DNA of 61,269 bases from NCBI GenBank assembly GCA_947463385.1, contig CANHSL010000005.1, forward strand, positions 1-61,269, given 5' to 3'. The notes beneath the pieces are model-generated. The model was given only the letters and a program-made list of their open reading frames with translations. It did no database searches and was not told where the DNA came from. Position numbers and translations under genes: made by a program. Below are positions 33,638-55,401 of this stretch, in pieces; within the stretch, counting starts at the first letter, position 1, and every line of letters starts with the position of its first letter. The DNA comes from Flavobacteriales bacterium. GTDB taxonomy: Bacteria > Bacteroidota > Bacteroidia > Flavobacteriales_D > Crocinitomicaceae.

Positions 33638-33732
33638 TATTTTTTTGAACATACATACCTTGCTTCGTAGAAAATAGTTTCCAAAGAAATCGCTTCGCTC
33701 AGTGCTCGCCCGATAGTGATAATCATGTAAAA

Positions 33733-33764
33733 AGCCCTGCTTCGCTTGTTCAGCTTCGCAGGGC
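33733..33764 (-). terminator. Terminator-like hairpin in first tRNA-end copy
   Basis: Inverted repeat GCCCTGC...GCAGGGC with a 16-18-base centre, followed on the minus strand by a T-run. It occupies the same place as the AGCCCC hairpins of the other two copies but differs in sequence. Confidence 0.5.
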
Positions 33765-33865
33765 GGAAGTGGAGAAGATCGGGCTTACCTCAACTTCGTT
33801 CGGCATAAGCTACTCCCTTTGGTCGTGAAATCGCTTCGCTAAGTGCTCGCCCGATAATTGTAATA

Positions 33866-33890
33866 ATAGAAAAAGCCCCAAGCGGGGCTT
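33866..33890 (-). terminator. Rho-independent terminator, second tRNA-end copy
   Basis: Stem AAGCCCC/GGGGCTT with a four-base loop, then TTTTTCT on the minus strand. Identical to the terminator directly after the intact tRNA. Confidence 0.6.
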
Positions 33891-33962
33891 CTTTATACGT
33901 GGAGAAGATCGGGCTTACCTCAACTTCGTTCGGCATAAACCTCTCGCCCGATAATTGTAATA

Positions 33963-33990
33963 ATAGAAAAAGCCCCAAGCGGGGCTTCTT
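33963..33990 (-). terminator. Rho-independent terminator of tRNA-Ala
   Basis: Stem AAGCCCC/GGGGCTT with a four-base loop and a T-run, starting about ten bases after the tRNA 3' end on the minus strand. Confidence 0.75.
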
Positions 33991-33996
33991 TATACG

Positions 33997-34070
33997 TGGA
34001 GAAGATCGGGCTCGAACCGACGACCTCTTGACTGCCAGTCAAGCGCTCTAGCCAACTGAGCTACATCCCC
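33997..34070 (-). tRNA. tRNA-Ala (anticodon GGC)
   Basis: A complete cloverleaf on the minus strand: acceptor GGGGATG pairing with CTTCTCC, D-arm with TAGCTCAGTTGG, anticodon stem CTTGA/TCAAG with loop CTGGCAG (anticodon GGC, reading GCC and GCU), T-arm with TTCGAGC, discriminator A. The acceptor has the G3-U70 pair that defines alanine tRNAs, and one U6-U67 mismatch. CCA is not encoded and must be added after RNase Z processing. It is flanked on both sides by partial copies of its own ends. Confidence 0.95.
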
Positions 34071-34090
34071 ATTAAATTTGAATCACACGT

Positions 34091-34126
34091 GCTCTAGCCT
34101 CCGCCGCGGCGGAAAGCTACATCCCC
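34091..34126 (-). repeat. Partial tRNA-Ala 5' end with palindrome in D-arm, copy 1
   Basis: Plus-strand sequence starts GCTCTAGCC and ends GCTACATCCCC, matching the tRNA 5' end and D-arm, but the D-loop is replaced by the palindrome TCCGCCGCGGCGGA (34100-34113). It lacks anticodon and T arms, so it is not a functional tRNA. Confidence 0.8.
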
Positions 34127-34142
34127 TTAATTGTAATCACTC

Positions 34143-34177
34143 GCTCTAGTTCCGCAACTGCGGAAAGCTACATCCCC
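34143..34177 (-). repeat. Partial tRNA-Ala 5' end with palindrome in D-arm, copy 2
   Basis: Same design as the neighbour at 34091: GCTCTAG ... GCTACATCCCC, with the palindrome TCCGCAACTGCGGA (34151-34164) in place of the D-loop. The two copies are about 50 bases apart and lie on the 5' side of the intact tRNA. Confidence 0.8.
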
Positions 34178-34248
34178 GAGATGAGTGCGAATATACAGCC
34201 TTTCGTCAAATCCTGAAAGTTTTCTTTTCGTTAGGTGGTCAACTTTTG

Positions 34249-42572: not shown

Positions 42573-44615
42573 TTACTGGTTGAATTTTCGTATTCCTTTC
42601 AATAAGAAGTTCTTGTAGCTCTCAATTTCTGGCGTATATCCGATGGTTTCCGTAAGGTCTTTCCCTTCATGATCCGTTACCACGTAGAGCGGTTGTTGGA
42701 AGCTTTTGTAATTAATTACTTCGTACTCTGCCCATTTGTTTCCAACGTCACGAATTTTCCCACCTAACTCCTTGGAATAACGCTGCTCGCTTTCTGGAAG
42801 CGGTTGGTGGTCATCTACATACAGCGAGATAATCACAAAACTCTTTTGAAGTAAGGGACGGATTTCGTCGTTGGTCCAAACGGTAGATTCTGTTTTACGA
42901 CAATTCTGACAGGCATGTCCCGTGAAATCCATGAGGATTGGTAGATTTCGTTCCTTGGCATAGGCTCGTCCTTTGTATAAGTCATGGAATACTAAGATGG
43001 AACCATCACCCACAGGATGCATGTCTGCCGCATATTTATCGGTAATGGAATCTTGTTTTACCCCGGTATCAAGTCCACCGTTATTAAAGCGGAAATTATC
43101 CTCTGAATGGGTTCTTGGAGGAGCGATACCATCGATTAATTTTAATGGGTGGCCAAACATTCCGGTAAACAAGTAAACGGAGAACACGAGGGCAACGAAC
43201 GCGAACATGAACCTTGGAACGCTTAATTTTTCAACGGGGGAATCATGAGAGAATCGAATCTTTCCAAGAAGATAAAGGCCCATAAGCATGAAAATCACAA
43301 ACCACGACCCTACAAACCATTCACGGCTTAGGATATCCCAATGGTAGGCCATATCAACAGCAGATAAAAATTTCATTGCCAAGGCGATTTCAAGAAGTCC
43401 AAGAACCACTTTAACTGAATTTAACCAGCCGCCGGATTGTGGTAGAGAGTTTAACCAACTTGGAAAAATTGCAAATAAGGTAAAGGGAATTGCAAGTGCA
43501 AGTGAAAATCCGCCCATACCCATGGCTGGCGTAAGATAGGACCCGGTGGTTGATGCGGTAACTAATAGACTTCCAATGATTGGACCTGTACACGAAAAAG
43601 AAACCAATCCGAGGGTAAAGGCCATAAAGAAGATGCCTATGTACCCACCGCGGTCGGCTTGCTTGTCCATCTTATTCACCCATTTACTTGGTAATTGTAT
43701 TTCAAAGGCCCCAAGAAATGAGAAGGCGAAAACCATAAAGATTGCAAAGAACACGAGGTTCATCCAAATGTTCGTGGATAGGTCATTTAGTCCGGTGGTT
43801 CCTAAAACTGCCGTAAATAAAATGCCCGAAGTAACATAGATCACAACAATTGACACGCCATAAACAAGTGCTTTGATGATTCCTTCCGCGCGTGTTTTAG
43901 ATTGTTTGGTAAAGAACGTTACGGTCATGGGTATCATGGGGAACATGCATGGCGTTAACAGGGCAAATAATCCGCCACCAAATCCTGCCCAAAATGTCCA
44001 CCACAGCGTGTTAGGTTTTTTTGGTGCAATTTCTTTGTCCTCCTTTTGATCCATGGTGTCGCCGGTATTGTTGTCACCTGAAGATGTAGTTGTTGTGCTG
44101 GTGTCTTGTGGTGTTTCCTGGGGTGCACTAGCGGATGATGCTGCACTTTTATAGCCACTTATTTTAACGGTTGCGTCTTGTGCAGGTGGGAAAATACATC
44201 CCGCTGCATCACAGATTTGAAAACTGTAAGTGAAAGGAATGCTAAATGCTTCGTTGCTTAGTATTTCAATCTGCTGCTTAAAGGTAGCGTTTCCTTCAAA
44301 GTATAATTGTTCCCCTAATTCATCAACAAACTTTTTTGGTGCACTGCCATCCTTAAGTTTCCCAACCAACTTGAAATTCTTATTGGCTTTGATGTCAAAG
44401 GTGGTAGGTGTTCCTGTGAAATCCGCCTTCTTGGGGTCGTGATTTACCGAGAAAATATGGAAATGGTTTAGAAGGGTCGCTTTACCAACGATATACGCAT
44501 GACTGCTGTCAATTTTCTCTAGGCTAAATTTCCATTTAATATGGTCTTGCCAAGAGCCTTGGGCAAATGTCGCTAAGCTTAAAAGTAGTAAGCAGGTAGA
44601 TAAAAAATACCTCAT
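42573..44615 (-). CDS. dsbD: Thiol:disulfide interchange protein DsbD
   Basis: A 680-residue protein that carries electrons from cytoplasmic thioredoxin to periplasmic disulfide substrates. Signal peptide (to TFAQG), N-terminal alpha domain (about 25-150) with the reactive pair Cys135 and Cys140 in ICDAAGCIFPP, a low-complexity Ser/Thr linker, eight membrane helices (about 205-500) with the conserved cysteines in FALLTPCMFPM and SFSCTGPIIG, and a C-terminal thioredoxin-like gamma domain with CQNC in MDFTGHACQNC. It follows the separate DsbD-alpha gene by two bases and abuts topB. Confidence 0.94.
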   Translation of the reverse strand: MRYFLSTCLLLLSLATFAQGSWQDHIKWKFSLEKIDSSHAYIVGKATLLNHFHIFSVNHDPKKADFTGTPTTFDIKANKNFKLVGKLKDGSAPKKFVDELGEQLYFEGNATFKQQIEILSNEAFSIPFTYSFQICDAAGCIFPPAQDATVKISGYKSAASSASAPQETPQDTSTTTTSSGDNNTGDTMDQKEDKEIAPKKPNTLWWTFWAGFGGGLFALLTPCMFPMIPMTVTFFTKQSKTRAEGIIKALVYGVSIVVIYVTSGILFTAVLGTTGLNDLSTNIWMNLVFFAIFMVFAFSFLGAFEIQLPSKWVNKMDKQADRGGYIGIFFMAFTLGLVSFSCTGPIIGSLLVTASTTGSYLTPAMGMGGFSLALAIPFTLFAIFPSWLNSLPQSGGWLNSVKVVLGLLEIALAMKFLSAVDMAYHWDILSREWFVGSWFVIFMLMGLYLLGKIRFSHDSPVEKLSVPRFMFAFVALVFSVYLFTGMFGHPLKLIDGIAPPRTHSEDNFRFNNGGLDTGVKQDSITDKYAADMHPVGDGSILVFHDLYKGRAYAKERNLPILMDFTGHACQNCRKTESTVWTNDEIRPLLQKSFVIISLYVDDHQPLPESEQRYSKELGGKIRDVGNKWAEYEVINYKSFQQPLYVVTDHEGKDLTETIGYTPEIESYKNFLLKGIRKFNQ

Positions 44616-54254: not shown

Positions 54255-54288
54255 GGGTAATTCTGGGGGCTGCCCTGAGCAGCTTGCC

Positions 54289-54684
54289 TTCCCCCTTTGA
54301 AGGGGGAAAGAGGGGGATGACGACTCTGACGAGTATCAGACTTAGTCATAAGGGATAATCGGTTGATTCCTCCAATTAATAGTGTTTTTTATCGGCTTTC
54401 AATACCTATAATGGCTAGGCTAGCTAATCCGATTCCATCGGAATCGTACATGATTGTTTAAGTAATGCAGCAACCGAGCTACCCCAGCGGGGTCGAATAT
54501 TTTGTTGTATTGTGTTGCCTTGCTTTAGTTGTGATGCTATTCATCTACGAAGATGGCACCGTGGAGCGGGTCGTGGAGATGGAGGAGTGATATATATTGG
54601 GTTGGAATAAGTAAATCATCCCCCTTAATCCCCCTTCCAAGGGGGAAATAGTGTCTATTTTAAAGCAATTGTATTTTTCACAAC
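54289..54684. repeat. Tandem repeat unit 1 (396 bases)
   Basis: First of three near-identical direct repeats filling the otherwise gene-poor 1.3-kb gap. The unit opens with the hairpin TTCCCCCTTTGAAGGGGGAA, followed by CTCTGACGAGTATCAGAC, a CGATTCCATCGGAATCG hairpin, an ACCCCAGCGGGGTCG hairpin, the small frame at 54465-54590, and a CCCCCTTCCAAGGGGG hairpin near its end. Confidence 0.9.
54465..54590 (+). CDS. Possible 41-residue membrane peptide inside repeat unit 1
   Basis: An ATG frame of 41 codons ending in TGA. The peptide has a polar start, a hydrophobic stretch from Tyr12 to about Tyr28, and an acidic tail EDGTVERVVEMEE, the layout of a small one-helix membrane protein. Copy 3 (55261-55386) keeps the same frame from its third codon on, with mostly silent or hydrophobic-for-hydrophobic changes, but its second codon is TAG. 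Copy 2 (54862-54988) has a one-base insertion and an early stop. No ribosome-site evidence; it may be a decayed gene fragment or chance. Confidence 0.3.
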   Translation: MQQPSYPSGVEYFVVLCCLALVVMLFIYEDGTVERVVEMEE

Positions 54685-55083
54685 TTCCCCCTTGCGAAGG
54701 GGGAAAGAGGGGGATGACGACTCTGACGAGTATCAGACTCAGTCATAGGGTATAACCGGTTGATTCCTCAAATTAATGGTGTTATTGATCGACTTTCAAT
54801 TACTATAATGGCTAGGCTAGCTAATCCGATTCCATCGGAATCGTAAATGATTGTTTAAGTAATGCAGCAACCGAACGACCCCAGCGGGGTCGAATATTTT
54901 GTTGTTGATGTGTAAGCTACCTAAAGTCATGATGCTATTCATTTGCGAAGATGGCACCGTGGAGCGGGTAGTGGAGATGGAGGAGTGATATATATTGGGT
55001 TGGAATAAGTAAATCATCCCCCTTAATCCCCCTTCGCAAGGGGGAAATAGTGTCTATTTTAAAGCAAATGTATTTTTCACAAC
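54685..55083. repeat. Tandem repeat unit 2 (399 bases)
   Basis: Second direct repeat, same order of hairpins as unit 1, starting TTCCCCCTTGCGAAGGGGGAA. The small frame is broken here by a one-base insertion around 54903-54926, the most diverged part. Confidence 0.9.
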
Positions 55084-55386
55084 TTCCCCCTTGCGAATGG
55101 GGAAAGAGGGGGATGACGACTCTAACGAGTATCAGACTTAGTCATAAGGGATAACCGGTTGATTCCTCAAATTAATGGTGTTATTGATCGACTTTCAATA
55201 CCGATAATCGGTAGTTGTGTTAATCCGATTCCATTGGAATCGTACATAATTGTTTTAGTAATGTAGCAATCAAGCGACCCCAGCGGGGTCGAATATTTTG
55301 TTGTTTTGTGTTTCCTAGCTTTAGTTTTGATGCTATTCATTTACGAAGATGGCACCGTGGAACGGGTCGTGGAGATGGAGGAGTGA
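55084..55386. repeat. Tandem repeat unit 3 (partial, about 303 bases)
   Basis: Third direct repeat, ending at the TGA of the small frame; it lacks the last roughly 95 bases of the unit, including the closing CCCCC/GGGGG hairpin. Opens TTCCCCCTTGCGAATGGGGAA. Confidence 0.88.
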
Positions 55387-55401
55387 TATTATAGAATTAT
55401 A

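Follow-up and report, generated by a model that had tools for sequence, protein, structure and literature searches.

Loop-rewritten partial copies flank a tRNA-Ala gene in a Flavobacteriales bacterium and recur at other bacterial tRNA genes

A tRNA-Ala gene between copies of its own two ends

The window analyzed here, a stretch of 61,269 nucleotides from a Flavobacteriales bacterium (GenBank assembly GCA_947463385.1, contig CANHSL010000005.1), carries on its minus strand an intact tRNA-Ala(GGC) gene at 33996-34070 (ARAGORN; Rfam 64 bits at 33997-34070), upstream of which lie a divergent arginase gene and then a gene for arginyl-tRNA synthetase. Two units directly precede the tRNA on the same strand. 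5’ unit 1 (51 bp, 34127..34177) consists of a copy of tRNA nucleotides 1-12, a hairpin (TTCCGC-AGTT-GCGGAA, 34150-34165) occupying the place of the D-loop, the D-stem motif CTAGAGC, and an AT-rich tail, and 5’ unit 2 (56 bp, 34071..34126) repeats this design with its hairpin at 34098-34114. The copied sequence GGGGATGTAGCT stands at 34166-34177, 34115-34126 and 34059-34070, the last being the tRNA itself, and at about the place of the tRNA D-loop CAGTTGG the two units read TTCCGCAGTTGCGGAA and TTCCGCCGCGGCGGAGG. A unit similar to the first occurs three times in a close relative (genome G024), and the second differs from units of genomes G204 and G402 at 3 and 4 places. Upstream of 5’ unit 1 lies a putative promoter, TTTC-N19-TATATTCG (minus strand, 34188..34218), which we take to fit the Bacteroidota promoter consensus; a promoter scan reported no sigma-70-type promoter at this position.

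The downstream side is built from the other end of the gene, again on the minus strand. 3’ unit 1 (97 bp, 33899..33995) comprises the terminator-like hairpin of the tRNA (33967..33990, terminator scan), the heptamer ATCGGGC (within 33946-33953), an inner hairpin, and a copy of the tRNA 3’ end at 33899-33914 in which identity to the tRNA starts at A58. 3’ unit 2 (130 bp, 33769..33898) has the same order of parts: a terminator-like site at 33870-33893, ATCGGGC within 33849-33856, a hairpin stretch, and a tRNA 3’ copy at 33769-33784. In both units ATCGGGC is complementary to GCCCGAT of the tRNA copy and could pair with it around the inner hairpin. The 16-mer GCCCGATCTTCTCCAC accordingly occurs at 33996-34011 in the tRNA and at 33899-33914 and 33769-33784 in its copies, and a perfect 70-bp repeat spans the tRNA 3’ end plus sequence beyond it. 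The array ends at 33686..33768 (minus strand) with a third terminator-like hairpin and the remnant of a further unit (TATCGGGCGAGCACTGAGCGAAGCGATTTC), which lacks a tRNA copy and matches repeat family D2 at 87%. The terminator scan returned two sites, after the tRNA (33990-33967) and after the first 3’ copy (33893-33870), against 1.0 expected from shuffled sequence; the third hairpin with its T-run (33729-33764), which follows the second 3’ copy, was picked by eye and is absent from the scan output. Elsewhere in the window, at 54288-55389, a 399-bp unit that starts with the GC-rich CCCCCTT...AAGGGGG is repeated in tandem (2.8 copies, 90% matches).

The copies are specific to this locus. With up to two mismatches the 3’ 16-mer has only its three sites in the whole 2.6-Mb assembly, and with up to three mismatches the 18-mer GGGGATGTAGCTTTCCGC finds just the two 5’ units; backward controls gave 0 in both searches, which excludes a chance origin. 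A preliminary description of this stretch, made from the letters alone, had placed two 5’ fragments upstream and two 3’ fragments downstream of an intact tRNA-Ala, and coordinates and repeat matches bear this out. It was also right that the fragments derive from this tRNA, that the D-arm is rewritten in the 5’ fragments, and, as far as terminator-like sites go, that each 3’ copy has one of its own, one by scan (33893-33870) and one by eye (33764-33729). Dispersed repeats unrelated to any tRNA, which would have spoken against this derivation, are rejected by the confinement of both probes to the locus. A different motif, GGGACARGCAACTTCGC, is found exactly only at a tRNA-Met unit, with 10 further sites at three mismatches against 6 in the backward control. 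At the gathering score, Rfam reported no RNA family other than tRNA in the window, and six further matches below that score (E up to 10) were taken as chance. An assembly artefact is unlikely, since the identical design is present in isolate genomes, for example in Algoriphagus, Roseivirga and Marinoscillum records.

Fragments of tRNA genes are usually attributed to integration, and the preliminary description had implied as much for the 3’ copies. The array could in principle consist of attachment-site scars of integrase-borne islands that later departed or decayed: islands in tRNA genes are typically marked by a duplicated tRNA 3’ end (PMC4383910, PMC9897764). We consider this origin highly improbable here. 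The eight neighbouring proteins include no integrase or other mobile-element protein (three of the eight have no Pfam match), the 3’ copies are spaced 97-130 bp apart and stay within about 230 bp of the tRNA, and no island intervenes. In the seven genomes that carry 3’ copies, these lie within 320 bp of the tRNA (600 bp searched), likewise with no island between. Moreover, the copied 3’ piece extends through the terminator, 5’ copies of this form would go unexplained, no further copy exists in the genome, and the pattern recurs at other tRNAs. Two other parts of the preliminary description hold up: no element remains inside the array, and repeated breakage and copying at both gene ends is a fair account of what is seen.

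Recurrence within the genome, the genus and other bacteria

With 12-mer or 14-mer probes, one mismatch allowed, we searched 400 bp of flank for copies of each tRNA’s own ends in this genome (G000) and two relatives, G024 and G016. In the relatives, 30 of 35 and 30 of 38 matched places yielded a locus, which made 31 and 35 distinct tRNA loci with neighbours included. Copies were found at 7 of 32 tRNA loci in this genome, at 7 of the 31 in the close relative G024, and at 1 of the 35 in G016; the carriers in this genome are Ala, Arg(TCG), Asn, Ser(GCT) and three annotated Met(CAT) genes, one of them initiator-like. Across the 98 loci, 5’ copies lie upstream at 10 and 3’ copies downstream at 9, with none on the wrong side. 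Controls in which tRNAs and flanks were swapped gave 0 (5’) and 1 (3’) of 984 in this genome, 0 and 0 of 924, and 0 and 0 of 1182. The copies are thus a recurrent, tRNA-specific and one-sided pattern that is not unique to the window. At tRNA-Met the copied acceptor strand has acquired a new complement, GGTCCTATAGC ... GCTATTGGAC here and GCTATAGGAC in G024. The tRNA-Asn locus of this genome (L142) has three upstream 5’ copies of about the first 10 nucleotides with long hairpins, and scattered rewritten 3’ pieces downstream.

Of 86 genomes of the genus, 52 gave a match at the tRNA-Ala locus itself. We found 5’ units in 13 of these and 3’ units in 7, with 6 genomes belonging to both groups; the number for 3’ units is a minimum, because fewer than 600 nucleotides are present downstream in eight genomes (G329, 7; G278, 0; G021, 43; G010, 74; G001, 129; G403, 194; G354, 236; G006, 374). 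A second tRNA copy in G021 was left out of the count. Presence and absence can be clean beside a shared leader: G000 carries units and G329 does not (...TATATTCGCACTCATCTC), the closeness of this pair being judged by the leader alone, and G225 carries units and G233 does not (...CTTCGCTACAT). Two main spacer types track two clades of an argS tree (FastTree, midpoint root, without support values). Two main T-arm alleles of the tRNA-Ala, GCCCGATC and ATCCCATC, are seen at L281 (G336) and other loci of the genus, and in G336 the 3’ copy retains GCCCGATC while the tRNA carries ATCCCATC.

The tRNA-adjacent units of G402 and G204 differ at 1 of 57 places, although their ArgS proteins are 65% identical and their fourfold-degenerate argS sites agree at 0.31, near saturation. 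On these sequences the near-identity would reflect either transfer or strong constraint, and transfer is favoured by the closer genomes: the G402 unit differs from those of G000, G001, G266 and G024 at 4, 10, 11 and 15 places, and is therefore nearer to distant G204 than to any of these four. In the other clade, six units differ mutually at 1-5 of 51 places, which is compatible with transfer or with constraint.

To determine how far the design extends, we scanned one genome per species (n=84,980) with a broad pattern, a truncated GGGGNNNTAGCT copy before GGGGNNNTAGCTCAG, and obtained 88 matching stretches. Among the matches listed (80 of 88), record titles name Bacteroidota, Clostridia, Patescibacteria, Ignavibacteriales and others, so the 5’-unit pattern is widespread but rare, and present in several phyla. 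An exact pattern, searched within the same order, matched 10 of 399 genomes, every one of the window’s genus. In a weak literature search, mostly at title and abstract level and outside subscription journals and preprints, we recognized no description of 5’ units of this kind.

Replacement of the D-loop by a hairpin is the common property of these units. Among 61 distinct tRNA-adjacent units, 43 have a stem of at least 5 bp starting at nucleotides 11-20 (6.9 expected from shuffles) and 36 a stem of at least 6 (1.5 expected), and the folding z-scores of scan units average -1.8 and fall below -2 in 25 of 62; the units in these counts, as in the junction and complement counts below, are not phylogenetically independent. 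The hairpin sequence varies by lineage, being TCCCGATAGCTATCGGGA in Algoriphagus and TCCGCCNNGGCGGA in the window’s genus. Three Clostridia loci (L050, L081, L105) have tandem upstream copies of 66-67 bp in which the acceptor stem is closed soon after the D-arm, resembling two-arm mini tRNAs, and in L044, L049, L110, L094 and L052 (Bacteroidetes/Bacteroidales and a Neomarinimicrobiota record) a CAGGCAACTTCGC-like linker precedes the new acceptor-strand complement of 5’ units. Another palindrome, TCCCGATANNTATCGGGA, has 4-17 sites per genome in six genomes, five titled as Bacteroidota and the sixth being that of L112. By eye it sits inside a tRNA copy at 5 of 24 inspected loci and, at others, in the loops of other hairpins; at L299-L303 it is also found flanked by short direct repeats and in non-tRNA hairpin loops, as though it targeted hairpin loops generally.

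The junctions between copied and new sequence cluster in particular loops. Of 19 3’ copies in hand-chosen loci (two intact tRNAs dropped), 10 start at T-loop position A58, 8 up to 6 nucleotides beyond it and 1 earlier, with the caveat that single-letter chance matches may shift a start slightly. The A58 starts cover six tRNA and lineage cases: Ala, Ser and Arg of the genus, Ala of L112, Val of L101, and Tyr of E. coli. At the other end, 5’ copies stop at nucleotides 12-15 in 43 of 63 units (the search pattern allowed no end before nucleotide 12), and at L297 the T-loop is split by a palindrome at about G57/A58. Junctions at the D-loop and at or just after A58 are consistent with cleavage inside tRNA genes, a correlation at the level of sequence.

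Much of this could also come about through ordinary tandem duplication in which one breakpoint fell within the tRNA gene, by slippage or template switching at tRNA hairpins followed by drift, with no dedicated enzyme; the hairpins would then stem from template switching, or would have been selected because plain copies disturb tRNA folding. For a duplication ending within the gene the side rule follows automatically, leaders appear by eye to have been duplicated along with the copy at tRNA-Met of G000 and G024, and some scan units (L040, L048 and L056, for example) have little or no hairpin. The folding model is compatible with such selection: in 11 of 13 genomes the real units burden the cloverleaf less than plain copies would (mean difference -1.07 kcal/mol), in a model where the cloverleaf stays below 0.3% in every case and the real units are costlier than no unit in 8 of 13. 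Against it, G213 and G336 go the opposite way in this test, the junctions cluster at A58 and nucleotides 12-15, and some arrays contain GIY-YIG genes. Pure local duplication was rejected for G225, though not in general, since there the unit and the tRNA are preceded by different sequences, a leader and a spacer respectively, so that the unit was not copied locally from its own leader. Overall we regard tandem duplication as a somewhat unlikely explanation.

The units might instead be maintained as RNA elements, the 5’ units acting as a structured leader and the 3’ units as trailer RNAs, selected for processing, for termination, or as small RNAs. In E. coli, RtT is a stable RNA released from the tRNA transcript, and it has the same plan, a tRNA 3’ copy pairing with a new complement around inner hairpins. 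The putative promoter ahead of the units, the terminator-like sites after the tRNA and the 3’ copies, and a unit that changed at 1 of 57 places across a near-saturated synonymous distance would fit such a role. New complements of at least 7 nucleotides are found in 6 of 61 5’ units (0.7 expected from shuffles) and in 11 of 30 3’ units (1.9 expected), rows that are not independent; a new complement of the copied strand is thus not the rule, but appears in excess over shuffles. The distribution argues the other way, being patchy (13 of 52 tRNA-Ala loci with 5’ units, at least 7 of 52 with 3’ units) with clean absence beside shared leaders, the kinship of the G402 unit with that of G204 points to transfer, and the Rfam RtT model has no match in the window at E up to 10. 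Maintenance for function seems to us quite unlikely, even though near-identity of units could reflect function instead of homing.

GIY-YIG nuclease genes in related arrays

The preliminary description missed the design shared by both kinds of copy, in which a hairpin takes the place of a loop and in some cases a new complement of the copied strand is present, the presence of the 3’ kind at E. coli tyrT, and the GIY-YIG gene in the arrays of some relatives. Five arrays (L041, L039, L088, L297 and L173) have an open reading frame of about 90 codons for a GIY-YIG protein (Pfam PF01541 at 2.3e-13 or better) downstream of the tRNA on the same strand, at distances of about 1 to 322 bp. The tRNA is tRNA-Ala in L041, L039 and L088, tRNA-Val in L297 (90-aa frame) and tRNA-Met(CAT) in L173 of G024. 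By eye, the frame is followed in L041 and L297 by a loop-rewritten tRNA 3’ copy, in the latter with the frame ending within the copy; a degraded copy follows it in L039, and none was found near it in L088. At L173 a tRNA-adjacent unit lacks the frame yet agrees with the gene’s 3’ end at 43 of 49 nucleotides (score 37 against a shuffle maximum of 13), which shows how units can come to be without the nuclease. The window 3’ unit has a marginal similarity to this GIY-YIG remnant that 20 of 1000 shuffles also reach.

The window array itself contains no GIY-YIG gene, and tblastn (E up to 1e-5) found none in the stretches fetched around the 52 genus tRNA-Ala genes; a lone match at L310 was dropped, because a part of one query encoded by tRNA sequence had aligned to the tRNA there. 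In the scan, the stretch fetched for 3 of the 88 loci contains a GIY-YIG gene. We saw a single such gene in this genome, on another contig, C11, amid hairpin repeats and with no adjoining tRNA: at about 43200-44600 (L130/L131) its frame stands between alternating hairpin repeats (GTGGACTGAGTGGTCCGC..., CGCAGGCTTCGATACACTGCG...) on both sides, and some hairpin repeats of this contig bear the palindrome TCCGCCNNGGCGGA, the type of the tRNA 5’ unit. Viral contigs scanned with the L173 nuclease yielded no relative, and one of six proteins had a weak PHROG match to a homing endonuclease (phrog_314, E 8e-4).

Faced with the copies, their sides, junctions and hairpins, their recurrence, their clean presence or absence, and the GIY-YIG genes of five other arrays, we tentatively read the window array as what a tRNA-targeting GIY-YIG system, similar to that of phage SegB, left behind after losing its nuclease (rough probability 0.42), the link being correlative. 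In this mechanism, a free-standing GIY-YIG endonuclease, its gene next to that of a tRNA, would cut tRNA genes in their conserved loops. Repair of the break would copy the 5’ part of the tRNA upstream and the 3’ part with its terminator downstream, one intact gene staying central, and hairpins would replace the loops of the copies, leaving them without a target and less able to interfere with folding of the real tRNA. Recombination between short repeats would then multiply, shrink or swap units and delete the nuclease gene, producing mini-units such as those of the window, and co-conversion by a homing system would account for the likeness of the G402 and G204 units. We infer that the GIY-YIG protein cuts tRNA genes and that such a protein made the window array. 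Speaking against the GIY-YIG reading are the array of the window, which lacks the gene, the negative tblastn result around the 52 genus tRNA-Ala genes, its occurrence at only 3 of 88 scan loci, the C11 gene with no tRNA beside it, the marginal remnant similarity and weak PHROG match, and the E. coli tyrT junction, which has no GIY-YIG gene annotated in the 2.5 kb inspected. Nuclease action, tandem duplication and maintained function may also mix, with breaks creating copies, folding pressure rewriting them, and some copies acquiring a use.

A bolder extension of the GIY-YIG reading, which we think unlikely, is that undescribed selfish GIY-YIG cassettes are widespread on bacterial chromosomes and home into tRNA genes, splitting or copying the resident tRNA around a fresh intact one, with the window array and perhaps the E. 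coli tyrT repeats as fossils. If so, an essential tRNA gene would be held hostage to the element in a natural cleave-and-rescue drive, and the rewritten loops would immunize the dead halves. Genes for tRNAs are usually regarded as stable landmarks and their fragments as island scars, yet in two close genomes roughly one in five of the tRNA loci examined has loop-rewritten copies with no island, some of them on both sides. Were the GIY-YIG link true, it would suggest a cause for such repeats and reveal a chromosomal tRNA-targeting homing system; were it false, the arrays would still document clearly that loops of partial tRNA copies are replaced again and again, and would offer a way to test leader function.

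Comparison with known systems

The closest parallel on the 3’ side is the 178-bp repeat of E. coli tyrT/tyrV with its RtT/RttR RNA (RF00391). Three 3’ copies follow tyrV at 178-bp steps, another lies between the two tRNA genes, and the Rfam RtT model matches all four of these units. Like them, the window units are arranged in tandem downstream of the tRNA, each ends in a tRNA 3’ end with identity from A58, and each has an upstream complement, GGGGAAGGAT in E. coli, that pairs with the copy around inner hairpins; for the window this outer helix is a matter of sequence complementarity. The window units differ in length (97 and 130 bp), in containing a terminator-like site each, and in the sequences of their inner hairpins. 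No 5’ copy was seen in the 60 nucleotides upstream of E. coli tyrT, and no GIY-YIG gene is annotated in the 2.5 kb inspected there despite the same 3’ junction.

Two further classes of repeat share single traits with the array. The attL and attR fragments at genomic islands are likewise displaced tRNA 3’ ends; here, by contrast, no integrase with cargo lies between the intact tRNA and a displaced fragment, both ends of the gene are copied, and the units are tandem with terminator-like sites. REP-type dispersed palindromes are likewise short and GC-rich. Unlike the high-copy REP/RAYT palindromes, however, TCCGCCNNGGCGGA has just 10 sites in this genome, and the units carry tRNA-specific sequence.

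The free-standing GIY-YIG homing endonucleases of T-even phages offer the nearest enzymatic precedent. The gene for SegB of phage T6 adjoins tRNA genes; in vitro the enzyme cleaves within tRNA genes, the tandem amplification of a tRNA segment depends on it, and its motif is RAWTSGAAC (PMC13096335); segB of T4 lies between tRNA genes (PMC2988022). On the other strand the motif reads GTTCSAWTY, which by our own reading would correspond to the tRNA T-loop. SegB differs in being a phage enzyme that amplifies full-length tRNA together with segB, whereas the copies here are partial, loop-rewritten and located in bacterial assemblies; the window lacks the nuclease gene, and the likeness of SegB to the proteins found here lies in the GIY-YIG domain. 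What the two systems would share is a GIY-YIG gene beside tRNAs, tandem amplification of tRNA segments, and a T-loop-like motif.
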